In this document: positions 27,500 to 56,254 of the stretch, piece by piece
How positions within the stretch are numbered: the stretch's first letter is position 1
Layout of the letters: each line of letters opens with the position of its first letter
Origin: Rhizophagus irregularis
Lineage: Eukaryota; Glomeromycota; Glomeromycetes; Glomerales; Glomeraceae
Assembly: GCF_026210795.1 (NCBI RefSeq)
Contig: NC_089455.1
Coordinates: 682,001-746,000 of the forward strand
Reading direction: 5' to 3'
Length of the DNA stretch: 64,000 nucleotides
Notes under the pieces: model-generated
What the model was told of the DNA's origin: nothing
Databases searched by the model: none
What the model saw: only the letters and a program-made list of their open reading frames with translations
Program-made: the position numbers and the translations under genes

Positions 27500-28925
27500 A
27501 TAAAAAGTGAGTTAAAAATGTTATTTATAATTATACATTAAAAAAAGCAATAAAGAAGATGAAAGTAATCTGCAAATTATATTTAAGGTAAAAGAAAATG
27601 TAATATTTTAAATCACGCATGTCCTTCCTTGATTATATTTCATATTACACTGCGATGATATATTACAATTATACTGAATTTTAAGCTAACCTTAATCTAC
27701 ACCGTAAGGAACTTAATTCGATCTTAATTTACTCCATTTTAGAATATTACCAAACAATTAGACAAATGATTAGTTGCACATGACTTGCATTATTTGTATA
27801 GTTGATACTTTATATAGTACCGATATTTGATTACACCAATATGTATTAAAACTCTTTCCTACAGTATAAAATATCAATATATCAGTATTTTTCAAATATC
27901 GTTGTAAGTTGACTACTGTAGATCCCATCTATCTATTTAAAAAATTCTTTTATGTAATCAATCCAGGGGCTTACACTAAATAAGGCTTAGATATGGCTTA
28001 GTTAGATAGGATCATCACATGGTTCAGTTTAAAAATAATCGATCTTTTTTATTGATTGGTTTTTTTCCGATCATATTTTATATTTTATCGTCAAGAGTAT
28101 AATTATTTAAAAATTTAATTTTTCTTGCATGTCATCGTATCACACATAAAAATGGAAATTCAAAACGTAATATTCCATTAATTTCTTCTCACTCCTTTTT
28201 CTTCTACCGATCATTTTTCTTCTCACCCCTTTCCATTATTTTTCTTCTCATTCCACGTATAGCCTGAAAATATAATAAAATTTGGAACCGTAAAATCGAT
28301 TTGAGGTAATCTTCCATATAAAAAAAAATGTCACTGAATGAAATTCGATATTGTAATAATTTATTTATATAAATTAAATTTAATTTCCGATCCTCTAAAA
28401 ATCATAGTTTTTTTCCATCTTTCAACATTTTCAACTGATCCCGCATTCCCTCAATTTATACAGTACACAACGATATTGAGATCCTGCATACTTTCCAATT
28501 ACGTTCTATAATTAAAATTACAGTAACCAAGATCTCATTTATATCGTGATAACCTCGTTTTATATCCCATATTTGATCAAGGGGTTATATTGACAATCTC
28601 GCTCTTTTGATCAAAGAGATCTCATTTATATCATGACAATCTTACGAGAAGTTTACTTCACTTTTTTTCTCGTTCTCTCATTTTCTCTTGTTCTCTTATT
28701 ACGATATTATGACTAAACGTAATAATAAAGAAATAGAAATCGAAACAGGTATATATGTAACTCTTCCGTAAAAGTTTTGCTTATATGTAAGAATAATAAC
28801 CGAAATATGTATAATAGGATCGAAAAAAAATCAAAGGACCTTACCAAGAAAAAGGAAAGAAATAAATATTGAAGAAACTAATCAATTATTATTAGGTAAA
28901 TATTAATTTATATAGGCTTTAGCAC
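27500..28925. other. Non-coding AT-rich stretch
   Basis: No gene is supported. There are pyrimidine-rich runs with CTTCTCAC motifs (28180-28250), and GATCAAAGAGATCTCATTTAT-like sequence recurs around 28530-28640. Otherwise nothing specific was seen. Confidence 0.4.
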
Positions 28926-29300
28926 AGGTCGAAATATAATATACTGGTCATCAATCGGTCATATAACTGATTGGTACCTGATTGGTAGCTGATCTGTTAC
29001 TGATTCATTCATTCAGATACCAACCAGTCATCAATCAGGCATTTATTTCAATCGGCTACACATCAGTTGTATGACCGATTGGTGCCGATTGGTGACTGAT
29101 TGGTGCCAGTTTAACAATCGGTAAACAATCAGCCATCTGTCATCTATATTGGAAGTTGACCGATTGGTTGCCGATTGGATATTGTTTGACCATCAGTCAT
29201 CAATCGGCTATCAGCAGGTCGAATTATTGTCAATCGGGTACCAATCAGGCATATGTCCGATTGATACAGATTACAGCTATTTGCGAAATAACGGACCACT
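28926..29300 (+). repeat. CACAGGTC-family repeat with ACCAATCGG-type motif array
   Basis: Begins CACAGGTCGAAATATAA, then carries a dense array of short degenerate motifs (GATTGGTAGC, TCATCAATCGG, CCGATTGGTGCC and their complements). The related segment 42422-42792 reads toward the same terminus in reverse. Segments 45428-45765 and 58290-58600 have the same terminus but ATATCGGGTACC-type motifs. The opposite end is not defined; a MITE sits at 29303-29559. Confidence 0.6.
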
Positions 29301-29302
29301 TA

Positions 29303-29559
29303 CAGCTATTTGCAAAAATAATGGACCACCTAATTCATTTTCGACTGCGTATGAAATTTTCATACGCAGTCATACGCATGGTAATATCTGCCCAGACCGT
29401 CAAACTCATTTTTTGAGTTTTTCATATGTAATCATTCGCAGTTATATCACAATAATTCTAGCAGTTAACTATGCGTATATGACTGCGTATGGCTGCGTAT
29501 GAAATATTCATACGCAATCGAAAATCGAATTAGCTGGTCCATTATTTTGCAAATAGTTG
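29303..29559. mobile_element. Tc1/mariner-type MITE (257 bp)
   Basis: Flanked by TA (29301-29302 and 29560-29561). Long inverted arms start CAGCTATTTGCAAAAATAAT on the left and CAACTATTTGCAAAATAATG on the right read inward, and run through CTGCGTATGAAATTTTCATA-like palindromes. A partial extra copy of the left end lies just before it (about 29270-29300). The forward frame 29149-29502 overlaps it and is not a gene. Confidence 0.75.
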
Positions 29560-29599
29560 TAATAGATGATTTGTATGTAGCCGATTGATGCTCATTCAA

Positions 29600-30182
29600 T
29601 AAATGTGCTTTATGATTTTATCTGATCTAAGACTTTTGAAGAATAAAAATTCGATACTACTGGCCGACTTATTTTAACTGTTACTAGTAAACCGAACAAT
29701 GATGGAAATCATAATAAAAATGTATATACCCACATTCTTTTATATTGCATAAGCTAGTAAATGATTTATTCTAAATAATAAACAATTTTGTCACCAATTG
29801 TATTAAAAGATTTAATAATTCTCCTAATTACCCACTGAAAATTTATCATTTGACTATACATGATGAAATAATGTGTACAAAATGAACAAGGGAATATACA
29901 AGGAATGATATTTAATAAAGAAAAAATAGGCAGAAAGTCGAAGATTTTTATAAAAAAGAATATCGTTGGATGATTAAAGAAATAATTGAAAAAAGAAATA
30001 TTACAATAATATTATTTGAAGGAAGTATTTTTAGAAAAAAAAAATTAACTGTATGTACTAATTAATATACATAAAATTCGCAAAAGCAGGGGAGGGGGGA
30101 TCGGTTATTAGTGAAAAATAGGTAAATAGAATACAAAATATAGGAAATCACCACCATCACAACACCACCACCATCACTACCA
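29600..30182. other. Non-coding stretch
   Basis: AT-rich. A CCACCATCAC-type run lies at 30150-30185, immediately downstream of the stop of the minus-strand gene. No gene, RNA or element end was seen. Confidence 0.4.
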
Positions 30183-32221
30183 TCAATCGTCCATTTCAAG
30201 ATAATCATCGTCAGAAAGTTGGTCAAAAGGTTGGCCAGAAGGTTGGTTGGAAGATTGGCCGGAAGGTTGTTGGTTGGAGGATTGATCGGAAGGTTGTTGG
30301 TTGGAGGATTAATCGGAAGGTTGTTGGTTGGAGGATTGATCAAAAGGTTGTTGGTTAGAGGATTGGTTGGAAGATTGGTTAGAAGGTTGGTTGGAAGATT
30401 GGTTGAAAGGTTGGTCAGTACTTGTTAATAAAACAGTCTCTTCCATTTCTTCCTCCCCTTCTCCAACGTCAGCATCATATCCATCATTAAAGGACTTTTC
30501 ACTTTCCGCAAATTTCATCAAGTCATACTGCTGGTCTTGACGCTGGTCCAGCTGCTGGGTGACTGCGATCTTTAACTTTCCTTTATATCTGGAACGAGTC
30601 CAATGCGGCGCCAACAAAGGCGCCGCCAGTTCATTATTACAAAAACAATTGCCCGTAACTTGCTCACGTAATTTTCTATTATTTGGTTGTTCAGTTCTTA
30701 ATCGGTCAATATATTCACGCAAAAATAATCGTAACTTAAAAAAATTAAAATAGTTGGTAAAATTAAAAATAGTTAGAAATAGTTAGAAATAGTTAGAAAT
30801 AGTTAGTAAATAAATTAAAAATAGGTAGAAATAGTTAGTAAAATTAAAAATAGTCAGAAATGGTAAAATTAAAAATAATAAAAGCAGGAAGAAATACTCA
30901 CTGTGTCAGATCTCCACTTAAGATCTTTGACAATAATATTGCTTCTCCCGTTTTCGCAATCAGTCTCGGATTCCTCGGGTGAATGGTAAGCGTTATTGTC
31001 AATTATTAATTGTAAGTCTTCGTCCTTAAATTTCTTGACTAATGAATTTTTCACCATCTGTAAATGTTTTATTAGTCTTCCCCTTTTTAATCTTTTCTGT
31101 ATTAGATAAGAAGTTAGTATTAAGCAAATATATACACTGTACAAAACTTTATTTACTCACGTCATGGCGTCTGGAATTGGAATGTTTTCTTTTTTCTTGC
31201 AGTTTTTTTCTTGACGATGACCGATTCTTTTTAAGGTGCTCTTCACGTTGATGACGATGAAGGGAGTGAATTATATCATATAAAATTTCGTTAGAAATAG
31301 GAAATATATTATTATTAATATTTTCCATTATACTAGGTATAATATCGTTAATAACGCGATTTCGCTGATTAGTGAATGTTTGACCCAAATCAATCCTTCT
31401 CCCTTCTGGTAATGCATCATACTTCCAAATAACTTCCTTCTATATAAAATCAACAATATCAGTTAATAAATATATATAAAATTAATTTGAGATATCCTTA
31501 TTTACCCTTAAAGCTTCTCTTAGATCTTTTGGCATATCACTTTTCGTCAAATAGAAGGGAGTATTTGAACTATTTGAGCTATAGGAGCTGTCCGAATCAC
31601 TTGAATCGTCTGAACTTGATTGGACTGGGGCTTTTCCCTTTGCTTTATCGCTGATGGCTTTTCTGGAATTTTTGTCGCCATCGTTAGTATTTTTTTTTGA
31701 CGGCCTTTTTAGTACCCCTGTATTTTTCATTAGTAGCGCTGGTTACAGCGCTTACATCTTCTTTTTCATTAGTGGCGCTGGTTACAGCGCTAGCGCTTTC
31801 ATCTTCTTTTTCATTAGTGGCGCTGGTTACAGCGCTTTCTTCACCTTTTTCACTAATACCGCTAGTTACAGCGGTGTCACTTTTTTCCATTTTAATTGTT
31901 ATATCCTCATCTGACGATATAAGAATTGGTTCTTGTTGAGAACCAGCCTGTGAAGAACCCCGTGAAGAAACAGCCTGTGAAGAAACAGCCTGTGAAGAAA
32001 CAGCCCGTGAAGAACCTGGCACCCCGTAGGGTTCATTATTTTGCTGTTCTTGTTGTCCTTGTATAATATTCGCAATTTTTTCAAAAAAATATTTGGCTTG
32101 TTGGGTAAAAGCTATTAATTTAGATAATCATTAGTTTTTAGTAATATCCTGATATCTGCTGTCCGCCGATCAACTTACCCAATAGCTCGTCTACTTTCTC
32201 TAAATCTTTCTTATTGGACAT
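30183..32221 (-). pseudogene. Member A of the YHSPE/WRS family, slightly broken
   Basis: Five exons on the minus strand: 32221-32179, 32111-31506, 31439-31161, 31096-30902 and 30734-30183. It starts MSNKKDLEKVDELL. Then come Ser/Ala repeats, a block repeating SAVTSATNEKED, and a Ser/Asp tract. The conserved core has MPKDLREALRVNK, KEVIWKYDALPEG, YHSPEESETD, DLKWRSDT, LRLFL and LAPHWT. A C-terminal Asn/Gln-rich repeat (SSNQQPSDQ units) ends LSDDDYLEMDD. Exon 3 is exactly 279 nt, the same as exon 4 of the intact member at 37794-39035. Breaks: a one-base shift in exon 2 near 31700 and TAA at 30309-30311, where neighbouring repeat units have CAA. The gene could still be made by a different splice, but a lesion is simpler. 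Function unknown; probably nuclear given basic and acidic low-complexity stretches (inference). Confidence 0.7.
30765..30862. repeat. Short tandem repeat in an intron
   Basis: Units of about 10 bp, AAATAGTTAG with variants, within the last intron of the minus-strand family gene. Confidence 0.75.
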
Positions 32222-32419
32222 ATTTAATTCAAATTTTTTAAATTTTTTTAAAAAACATAAAAATATCCACAGTATAGAAAGAAATCAGTATTTTTTTTCA
32301 GATCGATTATTTTCATTATTTTTAACAATTTTAACAATTTTCAATTGTTCTAACAATTAGCAATTAAATGATTAATAAATTTAATAAATTAAAATCTGAC
32401 AATTAATCATTAGACTAAT

Positions 32420-32675
32420 GATGTAATGATGTAATATTATACGCGAAATTTGCAGAAATTAAGCAACACCGGTATATGTTATATGTTATTTAAATAAGAT
32501 ATATCATTGACTTAACAACTTTTCTATAATTTATTATTTGACTGTAACGATGTAATGATGTAATATGATACGCAAAATTTGCAGAAATTAAGCAACACCG
32601 GTATATGTTATATGTTATTTAATAAGATATATCATTGACTTACAAACTTTTCTATTATTTATTATTTGACTTTAT
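32420..32675. repeat. Two-copy tandem duplication of about 128 bp
   Basis: Both copies contain GATGTAATGATGTAAT, GCAGAAATTAAGCAACACCG, GTATATGTTATATGTTATTT and AAGATATATCATTGACTTA in the same order with few differences. It lies upstream of the YHSPE/WRS member A start. Confidence 0.85.
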
Positions 32676-32705
32676 TATTTGACAAATATTATATCGAAAT
32701 AAGAC

Positions 32706-33125
32706 TTACTCGTATATTTCATGTATTTTAATTTTACCGTCTTCATCCTCCTCACCCTCCTCACTTCTGATATTATTTATTTTGACAGAGGATGCTAACA
32801 TCAGAGCACTGCTGAACGAATTCACTTCTTGATTATTTAATAAAGTTCCCATTTCTGAATTATTAAGTAGGGATAGTTGAGTTTCTAATATATCGATCTT
32901 TTGTTGTAGAAAATCATTTGCTTCTTTCTGCATACTCATGATTTCCGTTAACGCACGATTACAGTTTTCTAATTCTACAACCTTTTTCCGAGATTCTATA
33001 TCCCTGATCGTTGCATGATTCGACATTATTTGTAAAGAGTCATTTACTCGCGTTAAATTCTCATTCTTTCGTATCAGGTTTTGCCTAATGTATTTAAGGC
33101 TACTATGTTTATGCTTTCGGCCCAT
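32706..33125 (-). CDS. Small coiled-coil protein, unknown
   Basis: The frame starts MGRKHKHSSLKYI at 33125 and runs 139 residues to IHEIYE. An earlier in-frame ATG at 33155 exists but adds only a hydrophobic leader, so the basic start is preferred. Heptad-like spacing of Leu, Ile and Val from residue about 15 to 100 suggests a coiled coil; the C-terminus is acidic (EEGEEDEDG). The stop overlaps a good donor (GA|GTAAGTC), so a further exon is possible. It lies between two other minus-strand genes: family member A downstream and a Tnp2-like pseudogene upstream. No family recognised. Confidence 0.5.
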   Translation of the reverse strand: MGRKHKHSSLKYIRQNLIRKNENLTRVNDSLQIMSNHATIRDIESRKKVVELENCNRALTEIMSMQKEANDFLQQKIDILETQLSLLNNSEMGTLLNNQEVNSFSSALMLASSVKINNIRSEEGEEDEDGKIKIHEIYE

Positions 33126-33159
33126 TATAACCCCTAGAATTAAAATAAAAATCAATTTA

Positions 33160-34048
33160 TAACCTTTGACTATTTACAAAAAAATGAGATAAAAAAAAAA
33201 ATGCAGATATAAAAACCGAATATTGTGATATTCGTACGAAAGACCAATAACTATAAGAAAAAACCGGTATGAATATATAAGATAATTGTTAAGAATGTTT
33301 ATTATTATATTAAAGCAGAATCGGTTTATATAAAAGAAAATCGATAACCGTAAAAAAGAAACTGACTTGAATGTAATCTTTGTTTTCACCGACCTATTAA
33401 AATTGAAGGATATGCATTAAATTTTCAAGTAAATTTGTTCCATTTGATCATTATCGGTATACCTGTAATAAATTTTTGAAATTACAATCCACTTTCAAAA
33501 AAACTTTCAAACGTAAGAGATGAACGGCAGAAAGCTGATGAACTTATTTATCATGAGTTTTTTTATAATCGGCACGATTTTTATTGCTGCTTACAGACTA
33601 ATTACTCATGCATGATTACCTTATAAGAAAATCAATCAAATAAATTATATTGGAACTTTTTTATTGTAACTTTAATGCTGCAGTGGCGTATTGGTTAGGG
33701 AATGTAATACCTGGATTATATTTCTGAGTTCAGTACCTGCTGTATGCATTACTTTCCAGAATATTTGACCATGACCGTGAGTTCTCTGGACCGGTTGGCT
33801 TGGATGCCGTGAGTCCTTTGAACTGGCCCGAGTCTTGATATTCTGATCTTTTTTGTATATTAACAACAGTCGAAGGGTTATTTAACTATCATTTTAGTTA
33901 CTTGAATTGAAATAGTCGTGTAACTAATTAATTACTCAAAATAAAAATATAATACATCGTACACTTCCATTAAATGTTAAGTAAATCTGCATATTTAAAA
34001 TTTATATTTTCACCAAACAATAGAATTCTATTATACCAGTAAAAATTC
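33160..34048. other. Non-coding stretch with a possible tRNA-derived SINE head
   Basis: Mostly AT-rich. At about 33682-33745 the motifs TGGCGTATTGGTTAGG and GAGTTCAGTACC resemble polymerase III A and B boxes about 40 bp apart, and a weak anticodon-like stem can be drawn. The T-stem does not pair, so it is not an intact tRNA. A SINE fragment is possible but weak. Confidence 0.25.
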
Positions 34049-37000
34049 TCACAAATGAAACTGCCTATTTATTGGGATTACAGCATTATATGTGATAGGA
34101 TTCTTTTTGCCAATTACAAATTCACCAGATACAAAGCGACTATATAGGTAATGAATTGGAATTAAACAATCTCGCTCTATCTCATAAAATTCATTTTGCC
34201 AAAGTTCAATATTTGAGCTTTTTTCATCACCATCAATACTTGTATAAAATCGGGTTTTCTGGTTTGGCGCTAGTTTATACCATTTAACAAATACTAATCG
34301 ATGTGTTTTAAGTTCACCCGAAATTCTCACAGTATGTTCAAAATAATACTGTACCTGACCTGGAAATAAGTCGGTCGTTTCATTGTTTTGGATAAATTTT
34401 GCCAAAACATTCGCGTTTTTCAGGTATCGGGGTGCCATTGCCGATCCAAACACTTCTGCTGAGATCCTAACCCGCCCAAATTGATCAACCATATTTGGCA
34501 CAACTATTGCATCTCTTGAACTGGTTGATGTTGACTCAGCAATTGTTACAAATTGCAAGTCGTAAGCAATATTATAATATTCGGTTAGGATTTGATAAAT
34601 ATCATCAGGCAAGGCAACCCAATTTTTACATGGCGTAAGCATTTCTCCAGGAAATGGTTCGCTACCGACAATCGTTTCATCAACTTCTTGGAAGAATACC
34701 TTTCTAAATTGATACAGCTCAGTGTAATTAAAATTATCGTAAGCTGCCAAACTTCCGGAAGTTAATCGTGGTTGAATTAATTTTAAAGCTTCAACAAGCT
34801 TAACATTATTTGATTGAACGGATACAAGGTTATCAAGTCTCCAATTCCGCATTATAATTCGTAAAAGTTCAATTTCAATTTGACGATTACTATTGGGAAA
34901 AGAGCCTATTGATATATTATTTAATAAATTATTAGCAAGCTTAAACGATTAAACAGTTCACAAAATACCTACTGAGGATACCGTTCATTCTTTCAAAGGA
35001 AAAACACCAGAAAGAATATAATGGACCATAATCCTGGCAACAATCGGCAATATGAAGACACAAATGGAGGTTTGGGGTTATTCTTTCTGGACCATAATTT
35101 TCTTCAATTAACGTTGCAACTTTGAGCAAACGTTCGTGAGCTTCGTTCAATATGTCACAGTCAATAATTCGATAAACTAGCAGAGAACAAGCTCTAACGA
35201 AATTCCCTAAAATTTGTCGATCTGGTTCAGCGAGCAAATCCCACATCAACGGGATAGCATAAATTAGAACAAACGTTTTCTATTGGTCAGCCGTAAATCC
35301 GGAAAATCCTTCTCCAGTTGCGATTTTATTTGGAATACGCCCCAAATCCGCGGGTATTTGTATGTATTTTGCTCGCTTTTCCATTTTTCTAGATCTTGTT
35401 TCGTGATCTTGTTGCCATCGATCCATAATTTTTTAATTATCCAATGGGCTATTCCGAGGAACAAACAGTGCATTGAATCTATGACAAGGTACCTTATCGG
35501 ATTAAAATACGGCAATCGAAGCAGTTCAGACCATCTAACATGAATTGAACTCACATGACGTTTTCTTTCCTCCTCAGATTTACACAGTCTCCAAAGCTCA
35601 GCATTCCGTCGATGTTCATCCAAATCTCTTTCTACAAACCAGTCAACCATATCATCAAAGCCGCCAAAATTTGACTTATTTCCATTTCCATTTGAATTTG
35701 CAGTTTTATAACACCTATGGCAGCTCACTGATGCTGATATGTGACCGCAGAGCTTCCTCGCCGCAGGAATGTTATTCGAACAGCATATTAATGCCAATCG
35801 GATATTTTTTTCAGCGGCGGGAATCTCAATCCCATCCCAGAACTCTAATAACTCATCAACAATCGGAGCGAGATAATGGTTAATTTTGTGTAACTTAACC
35901 TCGCTTGGTCCTGGTAGACCAAGCGTCAACATATTTTCTTTTTTAAATCTAATTTCACGCGGTAGGTTACAAATAACCCCATAAATAGCCCCACAGCTGT
36001 ATACGGATGACTCGAAAGGCTGAAACCAATCGAGATTAATCATAATTCCCAAGTGGGAATCTGCAGTCTCCGGTGTAAAAAATGGGACGTCTGAAGTGTC
36101 TGGAAAAGTTTTCCAGATTTTACCGTCATAAATATCTGCTAACATACCATTATTTACATCCCGATTGGTCCATTTTCGTAGTTGTTGCTTGAATTCTGGT
36201 CTCTGGTACAAATTGTTTATCTGTATTTTCAAATTCGGCAATGGAAATAACAATTTGGAGCGTCTTTTATTTCCATTACCATGCGGTACTTGCACAGTTA
36301 ATTCCATTCCGCAAAATTTTTCCTTCGGTTTCATTGGAAATTCTATATGCGTACATTTAAATCCTTCATCCGCAACAACATCAGTTATATTATATAATGT
36401 ATTACAGCTCGGATATACTGCGTAAGTCATAGATTGGTTGTCGATTCATAATAACTTAGTCGCAGTGTATAAAGAAGACGGGAAATCTTTGAATCTCGTC
36501 TGATTAGCATCTATTAATACTTGATGAAAAAACTTTATTAAAGAATCTAGTGCAACATCCGGCAAGCAAAATCTTGCTTGATATTTGAATATCCATGTTA
36601 ATATCCAAGAATCCGCAATATTAACATTTGTATCGGGATATGCAAATTCTGAATCATTTTCGGGCGCAGCAAATTGTTCAACAGGATCGTCATCCAAATC
36701 CATATTGTCTTCTGGAGAAATGTCACCTTCATATTCATACTCATTAATCGGTTCATTGCTTTCCTTATTGGTTTCCGGTTCCTGAAACTGGTCTTGTCTA
36801 CGCCTTTTTTGAGGGACAAAACCGGCAAAATCTGATTCATAATTATTATTAAATGATGTTGACTCTTCTTGTCCGGTCATTTCTTTTGATCTTGATGATC
36901 TTTCTACGATCGGACTATGATAGACGGTATGTGCTGGCTTAATCCGATTGTTTCCGGGTAAAAAAGGGACAAATCCGGAAACGCTAGACGCTAAATGACG

Positions 37001-37099
37001 CTCTAAATCTAGATGTCTTTTTCTGGTTCTTTCATCAACATATTTGCCATTGCATTCCTTGCAATCACATGATACTTTATATCTAAGTTTTGTAGACAT
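34049..37099 (-). pseudogene. Tnp2/CACTA-like transposase, copy 1, broken
   Basis: Minus strand from MSTKLRYKVSCDCKECNGKY (37099), whose CDCKEC...H ligands suggest an N-terminal zinc finger. An acidic linker follows, then the Tnp2-type core: LDWFQPF, GVICNLPREIRF, LTLGLPGPSEVKLHKINHYL, PIVDELLEFWDG, CHRCYK, then RYLVIDSMHCLFLGIAHWI. The C-terminal part has WDLLAEPDRQILGNFVRACS, LHLCLHIADC and SFERMNG, as in the DUF4218-like region of plant CACTA transposases. After one intron (about 34968-34893) it continues NSNRQIEIELLRIIMRNW to ITYNAVIPINRQFHL. Breaks: TGA at 36446-36448, a frameshift in an A-run near 35400, and TAG at 35280-35282 where copy 2 has TGG. It lies head-to-head with the intact family gene at 37794. 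Confidence 0.82.
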
Positions 37100-37793
37100 G
37101 ATTATGTTTAGTAAGATCGAAGCGTTCAATGAAAAATTTGAGAATTTCTACGTATGTATCTTATAGCCTATTTATGAATGTCAAAATCGACGAATAAAGA
37201 GCTTTTAATATGTACAATTTCATATATTAGTCCGGTCTGAATAGACTATTATTGCTTAATGGCATGTGAAGATAGGAAATTGTACGGGGTATTAATGAAA
37301 AATTAATATTAATCGGGTTTTACTATAGCGAAACCAGAAAATTATCACGCGGTCCGTCCGTTTTGGTAATTCGCTCAAATGATTTAGTTGCAAAAATATC
37401 GGACTTGACCCTTCTGGTGACATCATCTTGACCCTTATTAAAATATATTATGCGGGTCAGCACCGCGTGGTGGGTTAAGAACGATACATTCGCGAATTAA
37501 TTATATTGCAGAGCGAAACGTTGTTCTTTTTTACCATATTATAAGTCTTTTTTTTTTGGTCTAAAATTTTCAGTTCTTTCAGTCCTTTATAGTAAGTAAA
37601 GTTATAAAATCTTGTCGTTGGATTTCTGCAATGACCGAAGTCAAAAGCCCGAAGGCTTCAGAGCCTCTACCAATGAAGGACTTCCATAATAGATAAAGAA
37701 CTGGACCTTTTTTATCTCCAGAGAACCTCGGAGGCTAACCGATACATAACTTTCTCTTATTTTTTCAACATAACTTTCAATAGAGTTTACAAA
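37100..37793. promoter_or_regulatory. Divergent intergenic region of the first Tnp2/partner pair
   Basis: These 694 bp separate the starts of the Tnp2-like pseudogene (minus) and the YHSPE/WRS family gene (plus), so they must hold both promoters. An imperfect inverted pair, TGTACAATTTC and GAAATTGTAC, lies at about 37211-37288. No clear TATA element was assigned. Confidence 0.4.
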
Positions 37794-39035
37794 ATGGGAA
37801 ACAAAAAGCTTCGTAAGGAAGAGTAAGTAACCCTTCGTGTCAGTTAACTTATCAAAAATTGAGATATATTTATAAATTTATACAAAAAGCAGCCCAGAAT
37901 CAGAAATCTTATACGAATCTAGTTCGGAATCAGAATCAAAATCAGAATCAGAACTAGGTACATTTAGTATGTCGTATAATTCTGCTTATTGTGTTCTAAA
38001 CATTCTGATTCACTGCTTAATGGTCAATATACAATTGATAGAATTAAACCCGGAAGGCACTCAAATTCTTGATTCTGATTCTAGACCAAGAGATGACAAG
38101 AAAAGAAAAAGGTCAAAAGAACGACGATACCAACATGTATCTGAAATGCCCAAAGATTTGAGAGAAGCATTAAGGGTAAACAAAACTTTCGCTGTATTTT
38201 TTATTTTTTATAAATTTACTGATAATAATATATTTTTAGAGAGATCTATTCTGGAATCAGGCAAGAATGCCTCAGGAAACTCAATTAGATATCGAAAAAA
38301 CGTTCGAGCTTCAAAAGGATCTTGTAGTTAAAACGATTGTGCCAAATTTAATGAAAACATTGGATCTTGACACCTACCCCATAGGGGAAGGTGTCATATA
38401 CGAGATGATCCATCAGCGGCACCGCCACAAAAGGGACAATCTTCAGGTCAAAAATAAATCAGAAAATGATATAAAGAAAGAAACAGGACAGAAACACCAA
38501 AATTTACGACGATCGGAGGTAAATATAAATGTTATATTTTACTAATCATCCTAATCATCATTATTTATTTACGAGTTTTTTATAAAATAGAAAAGAAAAA
38601 AAAGATCAAAGACGATCAACAATTTAAAAAAAATTAATGATCCGTTGATTGAAAAGTTCAGTAACGAAGAATTGCGGCCAATAATCACAGAAAACGGCTA
38701 TCATAGCCCAGAAATTTCAGAAAGCGAGGACGAGCGAAATATAATCATCGTGCGTAACCTGCGATGGCGCTCCAGTACTGTAAGTGAATTTATTGAAATG
38801 GGTTACATATAACTGGCATATGCTAATTCATTTTAAAACAAAGCTGCGCAGATTTTTGTACTATGTTGACAGTAATATAACAAAAGGCGACAAAAAGCGT
38901 GAACAGGTGTACAAGCCTAGTGAGTACGTTGAAGAAACGGCACCGAATAGCGCACCTAGTTGGACGAAATCAGGCTACGATGGGCCATTAAAAAATCCAA
39001 TTGCCAAGGCGATTAGTAAATTACAAAATAAATGA
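37794..39035 (+). CDS. Member B of the YHSPE/WRS family, intact
   Basis: Six exons splice in phase to 296 residues: 37794-37822, 37890-37957, 38042-38175, 38240-38518, 38591-38779 and 38844-39035. N-terminus MGNKKLRKEE, then a Ser/Glu tract, then MPKDLREALR closing exon 3. Exon 4 begins RDLFWNQARMP and holds IVPNLMKTLDLDTYPIGEGV and a His/Arg-rich patch. Exon 5 is basic, then NGYHSPEISESED and NLRWRSST. Exon 6 begins LRRFLYYVD and ends with APNSAPSWTKSGYDGPLK. No transmembrane or signal sequence. Basic plus acidic low-complexity parts suggest a nuclear DNA- or chromatin-associated protein (inference). Close relatives are the gene at 55164-56252 and the broken one at 30183-32221. No known domain recognised. 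Confidence 0.75.
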
Positions 39036-39957
39036 AATATGTCAGTAAATTTAATAAATATAAATAAATATATCAGTAAATTTAATAAATATATCAGTAA
39101 ATTTAATAAATATCAGTAAATTTAATAAATATATCAGTAAATATAATGCTTGAGTCAAACAGATTGAAAAGAAATTAAAGACTGAGACAACCTTTTTGGT
39201 TCAATTTTCACAATACCTAATTTTTTTATTTTATTTCATCAACTGACAATCATACCGATATACCGATATATCAAGCTAATCTAGCTGCGGATTACCAGCC
39301 AGATTATTTTTGACATTAATTTAGAAATCGACATATATACGCAAAGTTGTAAATTTCACGAGTTGGGCTAACTAATAAATCGGTATCCGTATTTTGCAAA
39401 TATATTGTTATAATACACAAATAGTCCAATTTGATTAGTGATCTGGATCATCGAAATTTAATCTGATTAGCCAGATCTCTGTTTGATTACGATAAATATG
39501 GAAATAAGCACATTTTGTTTACAACAAAACCTTTTTACCTATTTGTGAATTTTTCTTCTTTTTGCCGTTTGCCTATTTGCGAATTTTTCTTCTTTTGCCG
39601 TTTTGCCTATTTGCGAATTTTTCTTATACCATCTTACGAATGCGTTGCCTATTTTTTGTTTATTTTTGCTTATTATATCACCGTTTACTTTCTACGCCCA
39701 TAATATATGGTGTGAAATTATTGGACTCGTTCACTGACAATGGTTGACATACTGGTATGTCAGTTACTCAGCTGTACGAGTTTATAACAAATTAATAATA
39801 ACAAGCACTTTCACATTCAACAATTGTGAACGGGAATATTCCAATTTTATTCTGGAGACAGATACGGAAACTGTTATTTATCGCTAACCTTCACTATTTC
39901 CTTTTTGTAAAACAGGTTTCATTGAGTTGTGTTTCAAATATCCTCCTGTTTTTATAG
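39036..39957. other. Non-coding stretch with short tandem repeats
   Basis: Just after the stop codon, about five copies of ATATCAGTAAATTTAATAA occur (39040-39140). At 39540-39625 a unit CTATTTGCGAATTTTTCTTC is repeated three times. No gene is supported. Confidence 0.5.
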
Positions 39958-40593
39958 GTGCGAGAACATGCCGATTTTTTGATAAATTTAATACTTCTTT
40001 GCTCACACTCAATCGAAGTGAAATATAGAACGACAATGCATATTTCTTTCGATTTTCATTTTACTGAGTGTAACTTTAAAAATGGTAAGCGAATATTTGT
40101 ACTGATCTTCACTTCTAACGAAATAAACTTTATTCGTTTTCAGCGATCAGAAATGAAATGTATATATACCAATTTTGATAAACTTCATTTAAAAGCAAGC
40201 CTGACTGATACGTCTAATGGTATTATGGTAAGTAATAATAGGTATACTTTTTTTTTGATATAACATTCTAGTTATGTATTTTTTTTCATGCATATTTTTA
40301 CATATAGTACGCTGTGGTCTGGAACCACCCGAGATTTTTGACTACCTAGGGATGAAGTTGTAAGGTGCTTGTACCTGATAGGCTAGCCTCCTCTGATCTA
40401 GGGTCTCATTAATCGGGAGACGAGGTGGTTCCTAAGTACCTTCCACATCAAGGGCGGACTTTTTTGTAAAATCACACGTTGGGAATACTATCTCGTAACG
40501 GATACTTCAAAGACAAAAGGAGCGAAAAGCCTTCAGTTTGTTGTTAGCGGTGAAGATGTAGTGGTCGTGCCATTTAATGGTTGCGTTGATTGA
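39958..40593 (+). CDS. Possible small gene, 3' exons only
   Basis: Three exon-like segments can be joined on the plus strand. The first is 39958-40084, opening after a TTTTATAG acceptor and reading FDFHFTECNFKN. The second is 40151-40227, reading EMKCIYTNFDKLHLKASL and ending at a GTAAGT donor. The last is about 40468-40593, reading KITRWEYYLVTDTS then GAKSLQFVVSGEDVVVVP and ending at TGA. The 5' exon is not identified, and a 150-bp GC-richer unit (40308-40465) lies between the second and last segments, so splicing there is uncertain. The last exon recurs downstream in the tandem array. Function unknown. Confidence 0.35.
40308..40465 (+). repeat. 150-bp GC-richer unit, copy 1 (candidate SINE or ncRNA)
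   Basis: Starts TACGCTGTGGTCTGGAACCA and ends GGGCGGAC followed by a T-run. It is highly similar over its whole length to the reverse complement of 46540-46699. Shared blocks are TTTTTGACTACCTAGGGATG, GATAGGCTAGCCTCCTC, TCTCATTAATCGGGAGA and CTAAGTACCTTCCACATCAA. Its base composition is far from the AT-rich surroundings, and the terminal T-run suits polymerase III termination. No coding frame. Confidence 0.6.
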
Positions 40594-42030
40594 TTGATAT
40601 ACTCATATTTTGTAGGATTAGCTAATACATGAGATTTCTCGAAAATTGGAAATGAACACTGCCAATTTTCACCCTACCGACATATATTTTTAAATTCGTT
40701 TTCTGCAATCAGAAACGAAGTGTATCTACCGGTGTTGAAAAACTTTAAAGGTGAGTTCATTCCTAGCACAATTCGTTTAGATAATTAACGTGACGGTATC
40801 TTTAAATTGTTCCTACTTTCAGCAATCGGCAAACTCAATCTCTGATATCAGTAACTATGACCAGTTTTATGGTAGGCTAATGGAGTAAAATAGGTATGCT
40901 TTTTTTTGATATATAACATAGTTATGTGTATTTTTTCATGTATATCAAAAGGAGCGAAAAGCCTTCAGTTTGCTAGCGGTGAAGATGTAATAATGATTGT
41001 GCCATTTAATGGTTGCGTTGATTGATTGATTAACGTATGCCTTACTCATATTTTGTAGGATTAGCTAATACATGAGATTTCTCGAAAATCGGAAATGAAC
41101 ACTGCCAATTTTCACCCTACCGACATATATTTTTAAATTCATTTTCTTCAATCAGAAGCGAAGTGTAACTACCGGTTTTGACGAACTTTAAAGGTGAGTT
41201 CATTCCTAGCACAATTCGTTTAGATAATTAACGTGACAGTATCTTTAAATTGCTCCTACTTTCAGCAATTGGCAAACTCGATTTCTGATATCAGTAACTA
41301 TGACCAGTTTTATGGTGGGCTAATGGTACAAATAGGTATGCTTTTTTTTTTTATATATAACATAGTTATGTGTATTTTTTCATGTATATCAAAAGGAGCG
41401 AAAAGTCTACAGTTTGTTAGCGGTGAAGATGTAGTGGTCGTGCCATTTGATGGTTGCGTTGATTGATTGATTAACGTACACCTTACTACTCATATTTTGT
41501 AAGATTAGCTAATACGCGAGATTTCTTGAAAAATCAAAACCACTGCCGATTCTCACCCTACCGACATATTTTCTGCGATCAATAGCGAATTGTGTATTTA
41601 CTGATTTTGACGAACTTTATTAAAGGTGAGTTCATTCTTAGCACAATTCGTTTGAGATATTTAACGTGTCAATAATTAACGTTTCGGTCAGATCTAAATT
41701 GCTCCTACTTTCAGCAATTGGATAACTCGATTTCTGACGAAATGTAGAAGTACTGTGCCGAGGAGCGAAAATTAATTATTGCATTTGTCAGCGGTTCTTT
41801 ATTAAATAGTTGCTCATGTTGATTGATCGATTAATGTACGCCCTTATTCATATTCTAATTCGCAAGATTTCTCAAAAAATCAGAAATGAACCGTATTTTA
41901 TTTCATTTTTAGAAACGAATTTGTATATCTATCAATTTTGACGAATTTCATTCATTCGATGATTAACATGATGGTCTTTAAGCTGTTCCTACTTTCAGTA
42001 ATCGGAAAACTCGATTTCTGACGGACATTC
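40516..42030 (+). repeat. Tandem reiteration of a terminal exon and its flank (about 430-bp units)
   Basis: Units begin at about 40516, 40948, 41391 and 41760, each with AGGAGCGAAAA. The first three keep the GGTGAAGATGTA...GTGCCATTT exon core, whose frame SGEDVVVVPF ends in TGA. Between them recur GAGATTTCTCGAAAATC, CACCCTACCGACATAT, GGTGAGTTCATTCCTAGCAC and CTACTTTCAGCAAT. The fourth unit is degenerate. This looks like serial unequal duplication of the 3' end of the small gene at 39958-40593. Confidence 0.75.
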
Positions 42031-42421
42031 GTTAGGAGTTTGGTAAGCAAGATTTCATCACCATTTATTTCTAATAACTTGTTTGTTCGTTTAATGTATA
42101 ACATTTATTAATTCTTTATTTTTAAATTCGTTCCTGTTAGCAATCAGAACAATCAGAAACAAAAATGTACCGATTTTCGCTTAATCATATTACTTTTATT
42201 ATGATTGTATACATTGATATAAGTTCCCATTTGAAATAAATTATATTTACAACTATGATTGTACAATCAAATTTTTGAATATATTGTAAATTGTAATTAA
42301 TAAAGCGCATGTAGGCTGGAATTAAAACCATTGTTTTTAATAATTTGTAATTAATAATGCGTAAATAAATATATAATAAATAAAATAGGTGCATCATAAA
42401 CATTTTATAAAACTGATTTTA

Positions 42422-42792
42422 CCAATCGGCTATTACAAATCAGCTATTAATCAGTCATCAATACATTATCAATCGGTCATTAATACGCTACCAATCGGTC
42501 ATTAATCAGATACTGCCCGATTGCTGTCGGATTAAGCAAATCCAATAAGTCATCAATCGGTTATCAATTGACCATTAATTGACCATCGTTCGGCCATCAA
42601 TTGACTCTCAATTTGTCACCAATCGGGCAGCCCGGATGATAGCCGGTTGTTGTCGGATTTTAGCAGAAATCAACTATAGATCGGGCAGCCCGATTGGTAT
42701 CAAATTGAAAATATCAGTTACCAACCAGGCATCAATCGGATACCCGATTGATGCCTGGTTGGTGACTGATTTGGCATCTTTCGACCTGTGTA
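42422..42792 (-). repeat. CACAGGTC-family repeat with a strong hairpin
   Basis: Read on the minus strand it starts CACAGGTCGAAAGATGCC and contains many AATCGG/CCGATT motifs, as at 28926. At 42721-42762 there is a perfect hairpin with 19-bp arms (CCAACCAGGCATCAATCGG and its complement) and a 4-nt loop. Pairing continues outward with one mismatch for seven or eight more bases. Confidence 0.65.
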
Positions 42793-45427: not shown

Positions 45428-45765
45428 ACACAGGTCAAAATCGAGGCTATCGGTTGCATATCGGGTACCAGATATATGTAGGATATGTATATGATATGTA
45501 TACGATATGCAACAATTACACACATATCGGGTACCTGATATCTGTAATGTTTATGCAGAAGTTCGGTGATATATATTATAGATATCGTGCACATATTACA
45601 CATATATCGGGTAGTATAATATCGGGCACATATCTTATACATGTCGTATAAATATCATATAGATATTGGTCAGTATAATATCGGACACATGTTATATAGA
45701 TATCGGGTAAATATAGGATACATATCGTACATTTATCTGACAATACGATAGATAATTTTTTCATA
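45428..45765 (+). repeat. CACAGGTC-family repeat with ATATCGGGTACC motifs
   Basis: Begins CACAGGTCAAAATCGAGG, then carries a degenerate array of ACATATCGGGTACC, GATATGTA and TATAGATATCG motifs. Frames on both strands (Tyr/Ile/Cys rich) are products of the array. The right end is undefined. Confidence 0.6.
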
Positions 45766-46539
45766 TAATATTATAATTTAATCTGGGCAAAATTATAATT
45801 TCAGATTAATTTTTAATTTTAATTCGGGCTAAAGTAAAATTTTATTACACAAATTTTATTCTTATTTTCAATTAAATTAAAAGTTTTATTGTTTTTTAAT
45901 TAATAATAAAAAAGATTACAAAAAAATATATTATTCTATATAGCTATATAAATAATTAGATATCTGTTATCTACAAATGGCGCTTATTTTTATCTGTTTA
46001 ATATTTAAAAGAAAGAAATAGTATTTTAGTAATAAAGATATTAGTATGAATAATGTATTCGTAAAAGAAAAAGAATAGTATTAAAAAAATGTTAGTAAAA
46101 AATGGTTAGTAATAGAAAATGTTATTAGTATATTTAGTAGTAAAATATATTAGTAAAAACAAACGTTAGTAGGTTAGAAAAAAAGAAAATATAAATAAAA
46201 ATTAGTAAAAAAATATACCTTTGTATTTATTTCACCTCTTTTTTTGAAGTTTGCTGTTTAAAGAGAAAATAGATTTTGTTAATTATTTTTCTTTAATAAA
46301 TAAAAAAAATAAATATTTAAATTACCTTGATGTGCGTTACTCTCATATTCTTCTGAAGATATATGATTAGATCTTCTTTTTCTTGAGTTTACTATATATA
46401 AACCAAATTAATTTTTGATTAAATTTTTTTAAAAAGAATGCTTAGATTACCTTGATATGTGTTGCTTCCAAATTCTTTTGATTTAGAGTTTTTTTCTTGA
46501 ATTCGCAGATATAGGATTACCACCTTGACGCGCGGTATC
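45766..46539. other. AT-rich stretch with minor exon-like remnants
   Basis: On the minus strand two similar short exon-like segments with GTAAT donors occur near 46325-46395 and 46450-46500 (one reads RKRRSNHISSEEYESNAHQ). They look like duplicated micro-exons of an unknown, probably dead gene. TTAGTAAAAA-like AT repeats fill 46010-46220. Confidence 0.3.
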
Positions 46540-46699
46540 AAAAAATGTCCGCCCTTGATGTGGAAGGTACTTAGGAACCACCTCATCTCCCGATTAATGA
46601 GACCTAAGTCGGAGGAGGCTAGCCTATCGGGTACAATGCTACCCTAGAACTTCATCCCTAGGTAGTCAAAAATCTCAGGTGGTTCCAGACCACAGCGTA
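46540..46699 (-). repeat. 150-bp GC-richer unit, copy 2 (candidate SINE or ncRNA)
   Basis: Inverted relative to copy 1 at 40308-40465 and highly similar to it, except for a variable middle (about 20 bp) and a few substitutions. It also ends (minus strand) with GGGCGGACA and a T-run. Its left neighbour on the plus strand is exon-like remnant DNA and its right neighbour is unrelated to that of copy 1, so the 150-bp block itself is the repeated unit. Confidence 0.6.
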
Positions 46700-46766
46700 C
46701 TACGTGATTAGTCTTTGGACATGTTGGGATTTGATAAGTGAGAGAAAAAATACTCCAGCGCCAGCG

Positions 46767-47564
46767 TTTTGTAAAGAATAATAAAATAATATTTTTAAGT
46801 TAGTTCTTTCTTTATTAAATTTTTGAAAAAGTTTTGTTTCTTAAAATCGTAAAAAAATGCTGGTTGCTACAACTGACGGACAACGACAAATTGTCAGGCT
46901 ACCCCCGGACAAAGTAATTGGAAGGCAGAAAATGTCATAAAATATCCAGCCCTATTTCATAACATTTTCCTCCAGGCTAAAGCAAATATTACAAAAGAAA
47001 TTGCAAATATATTTAACAAGCAATAGATACATGGCCGTTGAAAAATATATTCGCACTTCATATTGTAATACCACAGTCTAACAAAGAAAGACAAGAAATT
47101 GCAAATATATTTAACAAGCAATAGATACATGGCCGTTGAAAAATATATTCACACTTATACCACAAAGAAAAGCTCAAACCACTATTGTAAAGAAAAATAT
47201 GAAAAATACGCGTATATCCTATTTTCATACCTTGCTTAACAGTTCCACTATTTATTTAAAAGAGAATTTTCTCTTTTTTGTATGTGGGTAGGGGTACATT
47301 TTTTCCTTTTTTTATTCTTTTCTTTTGTATATAGTAGATGAGTATGTCTTACTATATTAAATATATAAACTAAAGTGCCAAAGTATTGTTAATATTGTAA
47401 AAGATAAGTAAAGTATACTTGGATAAAAGAGAAAAGAAGAGACGAACCGTAAAGCGTTAATAAAAGATAAGTAAGAAGAGAAAAGTGTATTTTTGAAAAT
47501 AAACAAAAAAAATCGCGCATTAATTTTAGATATCACATGTAATCAAAGCGATTTTAATTGGTTA
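46767..47564 (+). repeat. Dispersed repeat, copy B (about 800 bp)
   Basis: Same order of blocks as copy A (12498-13385): TTTTGTAAAGAATAATA, GACGGACAACGACAAATTG, the duplicated AGCAATAGATACATGGCC unit, ACGCGTATATCC and GATATCACATG. It is shorter in the pyrimidine-rich part, where copy A has expanded. Confidence 0.8.
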
Positions 47565-48960
47565 TTAATATACGTGCATAAATGTCATGTGATTTTAGTG
47601 ACGAAACTGTAAACCTGCGTAATATTACGGTTAAAATATTTTGAAAATTTACGAGACTGTAAACCTGCGTAATATTATTACTATTTGATCGTTAAAGCTG
47701 CGTATGCAGTAGAACGTATACAAGGGCATGTGATACTTATTGAATAATCAAAAATAATATTAACACCTTTTCTTTTAAGTTTGGGAAAGCAGATTTTTTT
47801 ATTATTTACAATTTTTATGTTAAAAATTAAAGTAAATTCTAATTTTTATTATAACTTAATAAAAAATACACATTTGATACTTGTTCGCTACTATTTTACT
47901 ATAAAATAGTATCCAGGCTGTACGGCATGAACGTCAGTATCAGTTACAGCCCAAAAAAACGTAAGTCTCCAGCCGATATTTGGTACGGACTGGGCCTAGC
48001 TATTCACTTAATAAATAAAAAAATAAAAATAATTATCTTCTTCACGATACGTAGGTAAGTTTCTCCTTCTCCTACGATTGTCACGCGTAACTAAAATTGA
48101 TCAAATTTATCAAATTTAAAATGTGAACGTAAAATAGAATGTAATATTAATTATAAAATTTTATTATAATATAATTACCTGGCCTCTTCCAAAATCTTGT
48201 TCTAAATTCATAATAATATTTTTGGCCATCTTTCATTCATAGCTACTGCCAAATGTGGCAAAAAACTGGCTTTCTGTACAAGTTACAGCAACAGCTTTTG
48301 ATCTGGTTTTGGTGAAGTGATGAATTTGAAAAAAAACCAATATTTTTTTGAATTCATTTATAAACATTTTTGGGAGTTTATACAAATCTTTACAAAAAAT
48401 ATTATATATACGTATTATTGTATTACGCTAATTTAAACCTTTACATGTAAAACATTGGAAGATATCAAGACTACTTAGATTTGTTGGTAAAATTGGAGTA
48501 GACAGTAAAATAATAGATATTATATGAGAAAAATTTCAAATAATAAAAAAAACCAAATAAGAAATATACACAAAATATTAAAGATAATTTCTTTTTTTTT
48601 AAATATAATTAAAAAAAAACTTACTAAATACTCGGCTTAATATTTAACCAAATGGTTTGTTTCTCTATAGGAGAAATAGGTTTTTTATAAGAAATTTTTA
48701 TATCTTAATAATATATATATATTTATACAATAATATCATTTTGATATTTTTTTGTAAAAATATTATCAATAATACCGGTTGAAGAATATTGTTAATATTG
48801 GTCTGAATCGTCGCACTATTGACCAACGGTAACGAAGAATCGGCTGATCGGACTAGTCAATTATGGTTTGTGTGCCAAATGATAATCTTTTTTAACTTTT
48901 TTCTTTTTTACTTCTTTTTTTTTGTAGATATCGGCTTTTTGGATTGGTAATTTGAACGAC
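47565..48960. other. Non-coding stretch
   Basis: The sequence ACTGTAAACCTGCGTAATATTA occurs twice about 54 bp apart (near 47605 and 47660). Otherwise AT-rich with no supported gene. Short frames near 47930 lack splice or length support. Confidence 0.4.
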
Positions 48961-48973
48961 CAGGCTCTTAAAC

Positions 48974-49159
48974 GAACGAACCAAAATAAAGTTCGTTCTT
49001 TTTTCTTTGTTTTTACTTCCAGGGAACGTAATTAACGTTCCCTTTTCTTTTTTAGTGACCTGGACGAACGAACAAGCCGAACACCCAGGAACTTGAACGA
49101 AACAAAGGTATGTTTCGTTCTTTTTAGTTTTTACTTGAGGGAACGTAATTAACGTTCCC
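48974..49159. repeat. Hairpin-rich tandem duplication
   Basis: Four hairpins in a row: GAACGAAC/GTTCGTTC (48974-48998), GGGAACGT/ACGTTCCC (49022-49042), GAACGAAAC/GTTTCGTTC (49095-49120), and GGGAACGT/ACGTTCCC again (49139-49159). The second pair is a tandem copy of the first with about 118-bp period. Each hairpin is followed by a T-rich run, and the units are separated by CTGGACGAACGAACAA-type sequence. Confidence 0.75.
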
Positions 49160-49419
49160 TTTTCTTTTTTTAGCGATCTGGACGAACGAACAAAAAAATT
49201 GGTGTATGGCAGTCTGCCAGATGATCAGTAATTGAAAGGGACCAATAAATTAATTAGCATAACGAAAACAATTTTTAAGAGCATTGGATATCATTTAAGG
49301 ATCTTATAGAAAAGGCTTTAATTTTTAGCGGCGCTGAAAATTTTGATGATAGTCATGTATCAATTATTAAGTATTATTTGATTCTTGCATCAAATCATAC
49401 TAATTTTATATAATTACAG

Positions 49420-49496
49420 AGATTTGTTGGGAAGATTTTGAAGCTCCGGAATGGTGCGTACCTATTAAAGCTAATGTATTAACATTTGAATGGGAC
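49420..49496 (+). pseudogene. Isolated exon of an unknown gene
   Basis: Between an ATTACAG acceptor and a GTAAGT donor, the frame reads ICWEDFEAPEWCVPIK followed by ANVLTFEWD. The Trp/Pro/Glu-rich composition is unlike random AT-rich frames, so this is probably a real exon or a captured gene fragment. No adjoining exons were recognised. Confidence 0.4.
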
Positions 49497-49902
49497 GTAA
49501 GTACCAAAATACAAGATATTCAAAATTTTAGAATTACCACAAATATTTTTTGCTTGTAATTCTTATCAAAGTTACAGTTGCTAATAGAGCTCAAATTATT
49601 AATAATTATACATTTTAAAAATATTCCGCATTAAGTTTAGCATTATTTGAAGACTTTTTTATTTGGTAATACCCTCCCTTAACTTTTCCTCGCCACTTTC
49701 ATAAACGATAATAAACGATTGTGAACAATAATAAGTGATATGATAGATTGAGGGTTGATCGGGTGGTGTGTGTATTAGTGATATTATAATCAATGGTGTA
49801 TAACAAAAAGCTAACAAATGATAATAAAATGATAATGATAATAAATGATAATAAACAATTGTGAAAAAATGATAGAAAATAAAAACTCATTCATTATTAT
49901 CA

Positions 49903-56252: not shown

Positions 56253-56254
56253 TG

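Follow-up and report, generated by a model that had tools for sequence, protein, structure and literature searches.

A head-to-head partner of Tnp2 in CACTA-type transposons of Rhizophagus irregularis, probably a TnpA-like accessory gene

Two head-to-head gene pairs, each consisting of a Tnp2-like transposase gene and a partner gene, were analysed in a 64,000-nucleotide stretch of the Rhizophagus irregularis genome (contig NC_089455.1, positions 682,001 to 746,000; hereafter the window). Both pairs sit in CACTA (En/Spm)-type cut-and-paste DNA transposons. The pairs are probably the core of autonomous-type CACTA/EnSpm elements, with the partner as a TnpA-like accessory whose most likely role is end binding. 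The partner is a helper gene long inherited with the transposase, and its family is best read as new, fast-evolving and TnpA-like, an accessory of fungal CACTA elements.

Borders and gene content of the two transposons

The first pair lies in element 1, which has the following features.

28923..42790: element 1, complete CACTA/EnSpm-type transposon, 13,868 bp, target site duplication (TSD) TAG/TAG
28923..28934, plus strand: left terminal inverted repeat, CACAGGTCGAAA
28952..29264: subterminal CAATCGG array of the left end, copies in both orientations
30309..32127, minus strand: partner A1, a paralogue of B1 by shared motifs and a conserved exon; likely exons, drawn by eye with approximate ends, near 31684-32127, 31506-31742, 31161-31439, 30890-31117 and 30309-30722
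32706..33125, minus strand: gene for a 139-aa protein, coiled-coil-like by eye
34049..37099, minus strand: Tnp2 (Transposase_21) gene with two long exons, disrupted in the window copy (PF02992 above cut-off, E = 1.2e-12)
37100..37793: region between the start codons of Tnp2 and B1, 694 bp
37794..39035, plus strand: partner B1, open, 296 aa, six predicted exons (37794-37822, 37890-37957, 38042-38175, 38240-38518, 38591-38779, 38844-39035)
40514..41737: 443-bp tandem repeats of the right arm
42423..42750: subterminal CAATCGG array of the right end, copies in both orientations
42779..42790, minus strand: right terminal inverted repeat

Tnp2 and the open six-exon gene of the first pair are placed exactly as in the first-pass annotation, which had also given the 694 bp between their start codons and had called the transposase broken; the damage consists of one in-frame stop, private to the window copy among 10 copies, and one frameshift. 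The predicted B1 model has GT/AG junctions and consistent phase. A1, absent from that annotation, has in common with B1 the motif MPKDLREALR, a conserved exon (30% identical) and the YHSPE/WRS region. The 139-aa protein reached no Pfam family cut-off; its 21 matches fall at 16 places, of which element-1 copies account for 12. The left border of element 1 is common to 9 of the 10 copies compared, and the right border was reached in 5. Both ends occur at ≥95% at 11 places genome-wide, each with a single listed Tnp2 and two or more partners. A Pfam scan of five other open reading frames of the window returned nothing at 0.01, and Rfam gave no match at gathering scores. The host genome is AT-rich and intron-bearing.

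The second pair, a diverged version in the same arrangement, had been located at 51465-56252 and extends slightly beyond. It belongs to element 2.

45429..58599: element 2, complete CACTA/EnSpm-type transposon, 13,171 bp, TSD AGA/AGA, subterminal ATATCGG repeats
50440..50862, minus strand: gene for a Myb/SANT-like DNA-binding protein (PF13837)
51465..54850, minus strand: Tnp2 gene, many indels in the window copy, upper limit approximate
55164..56348, plus strand: partner B2, two one-base insertions in the window copy

Two sibling copies of element 2 (98.6-98.9% identity) have the same ends, and the PF02992 search lists their transposases, homologous to that of element 2, at C27:1488961 and C8:2288850. 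The end of B2 (56348) was set from the sibling frame, the earlier 56252 being the stop of a shifted frame; both one-base insertions of the window B2 are absent from the siblings. The claim that both pairs combine a dead transposase with an open partner thus holds for the first pair but not for the second, where B2 is itself interrupted. The Tnp2 region of element 2 contains 28 indels of length not divisible by three that are absent from both siblings; since most are single bases, part of the damage may be assembly error. However, only 11 of 46 one-base indels in element 2 of the window are next to homopolymers, and substitutions are concentrated there as well (46 of 78 fall in the Tnp2 region), which leaves room for readings other than assembly error. 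The partner is the only accessory gene recognised in both elements; element 1 has the second partner gene A1, and element 2 the Myb/SANT gene instead.

Both elements have 12-bp inverted ends of the form CACAGGTC(G/A)AAA, giving CACAGGTC..GACCTGTG, i.e. the CAC..GTG type. The terminal inverted repeats are identical at 12 of 12 bases in all nine complete copies checked, and the 3-bp target duplication matches at every base in eight of them, the ninth differing at one base. In element 1, CAATCGG occurs 19 times in the 730 bp of both ends (shuffle maximum 5) versus 7 times in the 13,138-bp interior; in element 2, ATATCGG occurs 12 times in 730 bp of ends (shuffle maximum 10) versus 3 times inside. 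The elements therefore show the EnSpm/CACTA traits of a PF02992 transposase, CAC..GTG ends, a 3-bp TSD and family-specific clustered subterminal repeats. The likeness to plant CACTA elements encoding a transposase and a second protein, proposed at first pass, agrees with what the ends, the target duplications and the subterminal repeats show.

An identity with Plavaka, a group of fungal CACTA relatives whose prevalence in R. irregularis has been reported (available text of PMC11075540), was considered and rejected. The elements here share with Plavaka a Tnp2-like fungal transposase, probably of the CMCT clade, but the accessible part of PMC12730594 gives Plavaka two kinds of ends, TGT..ACA (2-bp TSDs) and CATCA..TGATG (2-3-bp TSDs); the ends here, with their 3-bp TSDs, are instead like those of the CAC..GTG fungal EnSpm families in the same source. 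The trait expected of the clade is a C(2)C and an H(3-4)H motif lying between the second D and the last E; candidate residues picked by eye are CHRC, HLCLH and FERMNG in element 1 and CYRC, HLALH and FERLNG in an element 2 sibling.

Association of the partner with Tnp2 across the genome

A head-to-head Tnp2 lies within 6 kb of 83 of the 152 partner loci, as compared to a mean of 0.87 and a maximum of 4 in 200 shuffles, bearing out the proposed linkage of the two families and ruling out chance neighbours. The broader possibility that two unrelated host gene families became adjacent by chance or segmental duplication could draw on the repeat-rich genome and on counts inflated by close copies of one element, but is extremely improbable: among linked pairs with a partner <90% identical to the query, 38 of 39 are divergent, and both genes lie inside borders set by terminal repeats and target duplications. 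Identity in linked divergent pairs falls to ~30% for the partner and ~52% for the transposase. The divergent pair is a conserved unit of a CACTA-type element, as the term 'two-gene element' had implied, but it forms the middle of a ~13-14 kb transposon with further genes.

The association is partial in both directions: 44 of the 152 partners lack a listed Tnp2 within 10 kb, and of the 255 listed Tnp2 loci 165 are never the nearest one to a listed partner within that distance. Partner and transposase identities are correlated over all 29 element-2-type pairs (rho 0.80) and all 30 element-1-type pairs (rho 0.48, P = 0.007), whereas the 22 diverged pairs of element-1 type show no correlation (rho -0.26, P = 0.25), which counts against the helper-gene reading.

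Relatives that share the ends without a detected transposase are common. All 13 diverged places with both element 1 ends are without a listed Tnp2 or partner. The first 100 of 818 ends include 28 cases of two copies of the same terminal repeat facing inward <700 bp apart; neither the C1 nor the C2 short pair was among the left-end matches listed (40 candidates scored). Trans-mobilisation, one of the options raised at first pass, is plausible.

Selection on the partner and its proposed role

Between families, partner dN/dS was 0.07-0.16 in four of eight pairs, at near-saturated dS; of the others, two were saturated, one was intermediate (0.40) and one, a sibling pair, was protein-identical. Private changes in B1 copies gave a dN/dS of ~0.94, with 50 nonsynonymous changes observed versus 51.0 ± 4.1 expected, and the selection on individual partner copies suggested earlier was not borne out. 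Private ratios lean below 1 for A1 (0.69, P = 0.078) and Tnp2 (0.75, P = 0.054). Since selection is visible only between families, the selected unit appears to be the transposon lineage. Domestication of the window partner copies by the host, with selection continuing while the transposase is dead, would explain the open B1 frame beside a broken Tnp2; it is highly unlikely, and was rejected on the neutral B1 private changes, together with frame-breaking indels in 6 of 10 B1 copies, private stops in 2 of 10 and the broken B2 frame in the window. Constraint between families, combined with neutral drift of the inserted copies, agrees with selection acting through the transposon and speaks against domestication.

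The partner has an acidic N-terminus, a helical domain and a basic segment, followed by the YHSPE/WRS region. Searches of Pfam, NCBIfam and PDB (sequence and fold) recognised no DNA-binding fold. Pfam gave only matches below cut-off, the best being PADR1_N in the B1 YHSPE exon (E = 0.0027, 18.5 bits versus 25.7), and no catalytic domain; NCBIfam and PDB sequence searches gave nothing convincing. The helical-domain model (pLDDT 73) had no PDB fold match (best E = 6), and the YHSPE-exon model was poor (pLDDT 54.5). Pfam models for TNP1/En-Spm second proteins exist. Membership of a known TnpA/TNP1 family was rejected, as no TNP1/En-Spm Pfam family was among the B1 and B2 hits up to E = 1, a range in which HMMER filters drop most hits above ~0.1.

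We hypothesize that Tnp2 acts as a DDE transposase that would cut and join the 12-bp ends, while the partner most likely binds the subterminal repeats of its own element. It would thereby help to build the transposition complex and would be needed for transposition, and it may also act as a transcriptional regulator at the intergenic region of the pair. The subterminal repeat arrays imply some end-binding factor. The partner could instead be element-encoded but not an end-binder, protecting or derepressing the element (e.g. against silencing) or controlling the shared promoter region. Such a role, possible though rather unlikely, would suit its conservation together with the element, the Myb/SANT DNA-binding protein already in element 2, and the presumed anti-silencing genes, e.g. 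TET/JBP, of fungal CACTA-like elements (PMC12730594, in the text available). However, Pfam gives no catalytic domain for the partner, a protein with a helical domain and both acidic and basic stretches, and it is the sole accessory recognised in both elements, whose arrays call for an end-binder.

A compatible reading, in which the Myb/SANT protein is the end-binder of element 2 and the partner is secondary, is unlikely. The PF13837 match is above cut-off (E = 6e-10, 39.8 bits versus 27), 21 of 29 close SANT copies sit within 6 kb of Tnp2, on its 3' side and in the same orientation, and Nuwa (Harbinger) elements too have a gene for a Myb/SANT DNA-binding protein (accessible part of PMC12730594), but element 1 has a subterminal array of the same kind without a recognised SANT gene. 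Returning to the partner as end-binder, it is quite doubtful that element 1 is a mosaic with A1 matched to the left array and B1 to the right, in which the complex would need both proteins and both ends, and transposase lineages would exchange partner genes, together with the ends that match them, as cassettes.

Comparison with known two-protein elements

The repeats of the host genome are largely unclassified, and a conserved partner would supply real borders and gene content for elements otherwise split as 'broken transposase plus unknown gene'. No such partner gene was described for fungal CACTA elements in the literature searched, from which most subscription papers were missing. A conserved, separately transcribed partner with target-like repeats would bring the two-protein question within reach of tests outside plants.

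According to the available text of PMC2613891, TNPA of maize Spm recognises the subterminal repeats, transposition depends on both proteins, and TNPA has no sequence similarity to TNP1 of Tam1. Like the elements here, maize En/Spm (TnpD and TnpA) and Antirrhinum Tam1 (Tnp2 and TNP1) combine a Tnp2-type transposase, short conserved inverted ends, a target duplication of 3 bp (a described trait of CACTA elements), subterminal repeats particular to each family and a second protein without sequence shared between families. The available text of PMC2613891 describes alternatively spliced overlapping transcripts for the Spm proteins and a parallel organisation in Tam1, whereas the partner here is a separate divergent gene; further accessory genes and a partner above no Pfam cut-off also set these elements apart. 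SmTRC1 of Schistosoma mansoni is likewise a CACTA element with a Transposase_21 protein and a rapidly evolving second protein proposed to be TNPA-like, but one made by alternative splicing, for which its authors found no similarity in other animal or fungal elements (accessible portion of PMC1636069). Nuwa resembles element 2 in pairing a transposase with a Myb/SANT protein, but differs in its transposase superfamily and in encoding two proteins (PMC12730594, available sections).

Pairing of Tnp2 with its partner across the genome

The window (29.1% G+C) lies in a genome of 146.7 Mb in 32 contigs. A first-pass annotation had described a Tnp2 (Transposase_21) gene head-to-head with a gene of another family, here termed the partner, and for this pair 1 the coordinates, strands, 694-bp spacing between starts and six predicted exons were borne out exactly.

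Genes of element 1 (pair 1) and element 2 (pair 2), the transposons described below
34049-37099, minus strand: Tnp2 gene of pair 1, placed as first annotated
37794-39035, plus strand: partner B1 of pair 1, six predicted exons, consistent in phase
About 30309-32127, minus strand: A1, second partner gene of element 1, with MPKDLREALR, conserved-exon and YHSPE/WRS segments in common with B1
32706-33125: 139-aa coiled-coil-like gene of element 1
50440-50862: Myb/SANT gene of element 2 (PF13837, E = 6e-10)

Conserved-exon matches from three listings were merged into at least 152 partner loci, while the Tnp2 loci (at least 255) comprised one listing as it stood, 103 of 109 matches from a second (fragments omitted) and 58 of 135 from a third, whose other 77 were fragments or already present. 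Since distances run from the conserved exon to the transposase core, limits of 3 and 6 kb were used instead of the 1 kb originally proposed for this check. The predicted linkage was recovered far above chance: the nearest Tnp2 was divergent within 6 kb for at least 83 of the 152 listed partners (within 3 kb for at least 71), and when position and strand were shuffled 200 times the 6-kb count averaged 0.87 and never exceeded 4. These counts are inflated by close copies, and among listed linked pairs with a partner less than 90% identical to the query, 38 of 39 were divergent. The window's own pair 2 is absent from the counts because its broken Tnp2 was not among the matches listed. Thirteen further listed partners followed a Tnp2 in the same orientation at no more than 6 kb, and 12 of these correspond to A1 in copies of element 1. 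Another four listed partners were convergent. No listed Tnp2 lay within 10 kb of 44 of the 152 partners, and 165 of the 255 listed Tnp2 loci were not the nearest Tnp2 of any listed partner; other Tnp2 families may therefore be without a partner, or have one too diverged for detection.

Borders and gene content of the two elements

Ten places with B1 relatives were compared against the window. Similarity starts at 28918-28923 in nine of the ten copies and reaches 42790-42793 in five; the others are incomplete or rearranged, or stop where the retrieved sequence ends. At these points element 1 (28923-42790) has 12-bp inverted repeats, CACAGGTCGAAA, with short duplications on both flanks. Element 2 (45429-58599, ends CACAGGTCAAAA) was defined likewise by two siblings elsewhere in the genome, 98.6% and 98.9% identical to it. 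The 3-bp target duplications were identical in eight of nine complete copies checked and differed by one base in the ninth. Terminal repeats with at most one mismatch number 4 in the window (0.49 expected), and the 12-base end CACAGGTCRAAA has 818 matches genome-wide versus 16 for the pattern read backwards. Both elements are of the EnSpm/CACTA type, showing every feature of that type that could be decided here. Membership of Plavaka, fungal CACTA relatives, is ruled out by the ends.

A1 and B1 are 30% identical in the conserved exon. Matches to the coiled-coil-like gene number 21 rows and fall at 16 places, of which 12 are copies of element 1. Element 2 has the Myb/SANT gene in place of the extra genes of element 1. 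Of its 29 closest matches, 21 follow a listed Tnp2 on its 3' side, in the same orientation and no more than 6 kb away, and 27 have a partner within 12 kb. Ten of the 37 rows that come next are near a Tnp2; nine of these, convergent with it, form a diverged SANT group beside another Tnp2 family elsewhere in the genome. Element 1 also contains a 443-bp tandem repeat array (40514-41737), and 165 bp towards the left of element 2 (46539-46702) match, in inverted orientation and at 90-94%, element-1 copies beside that array.

Two other window features drew attention by eye: a minus-strand ORF run at 22025-24781 resembling another mobile-element gene set, and a 352-aa ORF with poly-Q at 62645-63703 (plus strand) resembling a fungal transcription-factor N-terminus. 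Pfam at 0.01 gave no match for three ORFs scanned in the former or for the latter.

Decay and selection

The transposase had been considered dead in both pairs, which stands for pair 1, where Tnp2 carries one private stop and one frameshift, but is unsafe for pair 2. The long first exon of the pair 1 Tnp2 is open in a sibling copy; no whole Tnp2 gene was open in the ORF listing of the ten element-1 copies. A six-copy comparison assigned 90 substitutions and 15 indels privately to the window's element 1, and their spread over its full length looks like real decay. The window's element 2 carries 78 substitutions and 55 indels (46 of one base) absent from its siblings, a count that includes changes on the siblings' common branch; the siblings showed 4 and 8, and 5 and 4. 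The Tnp2 region holds 29 of these indels and 46 of the substitutions, with single-base indels clustered at 51400-54000 in the window copy and not in the siblings. The indel excess suggests a possible local assembly error, against which only 11 of the 46 one-base indels lie by homopolymers. Sibling copies of element 2 with long open frames exist. Elsewhere, one Tnp2 family (C2:884889, C6:2492542, C11:1464665, C12:4671413, C23:3340287, C26:2594127) has long open frames whose scores are identical at several places, and has perhaps been recently active.

Selection on the partner, as first proposed, is seen between families and not among B1 copies. Single private changes in ten element-1 copies (nine for A1) were compared with relocation of the same base changes, skipping multi-change codons. 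B1 had 50 nonsynonymous and 23 synonymous changes (51.0 ± 4.1 nonsynonymous expected), a ratio of about 0.94, and the coiled-coil-like gene about 0.96; A1 gave 0.69 (P = 0.078) and Tnp2 0.75 (P = 0.054), and any assembly errors among the private differences would shift these ratios toward neutrality. Six of the ten B1 copies have frame-breaking indels and two have private stops. Between families, partner dN/dS was 0.07, 0.16, 0.08 and 0.14 in four pairs, of which only the direction is firm because dS is 1.8-2.8; of other pairs, two were saturated, one was intermediate (0.40) and one sibling pair was protein-identical. Neutral drift in copies with strong constraint between families is the pattern expected of a transposon-required gene.

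Ends, relatives and the putative role of the partner

Searches with the left and right ends of element 1, scoring 40 candidates per end, found both ends correctly oriented at 24 places. Eleven of these are copies of element 1, and every one has a single listed Tnp2 and two or more partners; the other 13 are diverged (left end 71-78%, length 3.8-9.3 kb), and none of these 13 has a listed Tnp2 or partner. The first 100 of the 818 terminal repeats include 30 adjacent inward pairs, 28 of which span less than 700 bp; pairs in the wrong orientation never come that close. Many inward pairs span 75-661 bp, a MITE-like group with the same ends as elements 1 and 2. The non-autonomous relatives of elements 1 and 2 are thus likely to be mobilised in trans, the short ones being known from their terminal repeats.

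Identity to element 1 showed no correlation between partner and transposase across the 22 diverged pairs (rho -0.26, P = 0.25). For element 2 the corresponding value was weakly positive (rho 0.36, n = 17, P = 0.16), and with all pairs included both correlations were positive (0.48, n = 30, and 0.80, n = 29, respectively). Four elements (C5, C16, C17, C29) match element 1's left end in part (78-80%) and have a head-to-head partner closer to A1 (43-45%) than to B1 (36-38%), despite a Tnp2 identity of just 54-64%. On C4, an element that matches the right end in part (83%) has a partner closer to B1 (52%) than to A1 (38%). These cases, about two independent families, hint that ends follow partner type.

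No Pfam family passed the cut-off for the partner (nearest PADR1_N, E = 0.0027, below it), and no description of the gene was found in the portions of literature searched on the subject. On our best reading, Tnp2 would act on the common ends, the partner would be a putative counterpart of TnpA, the second protein of maize En/Spm, for the subterminal arrays, and the accessory genes would vary between elements. CAATCGG, in both orientations, occurs 19 times in the 730 bp of element 1's two ends and 7 times in the other 13,138 bp, and no 7-mer exceeded 5 in 300 shuffles; ATATCGG occurs 12 times at the ends of element 2 and 3 times inside (shuffle maximum 10). With these different motifs beside like termini, the extreme ends are common while the subterminal arrays differ. 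In this combination of shared extreme ends and element-specific subterminal arrays, elements 1 and 2 resemble plant CACTA elements, for which the same arrangement is described (PMC2613891).
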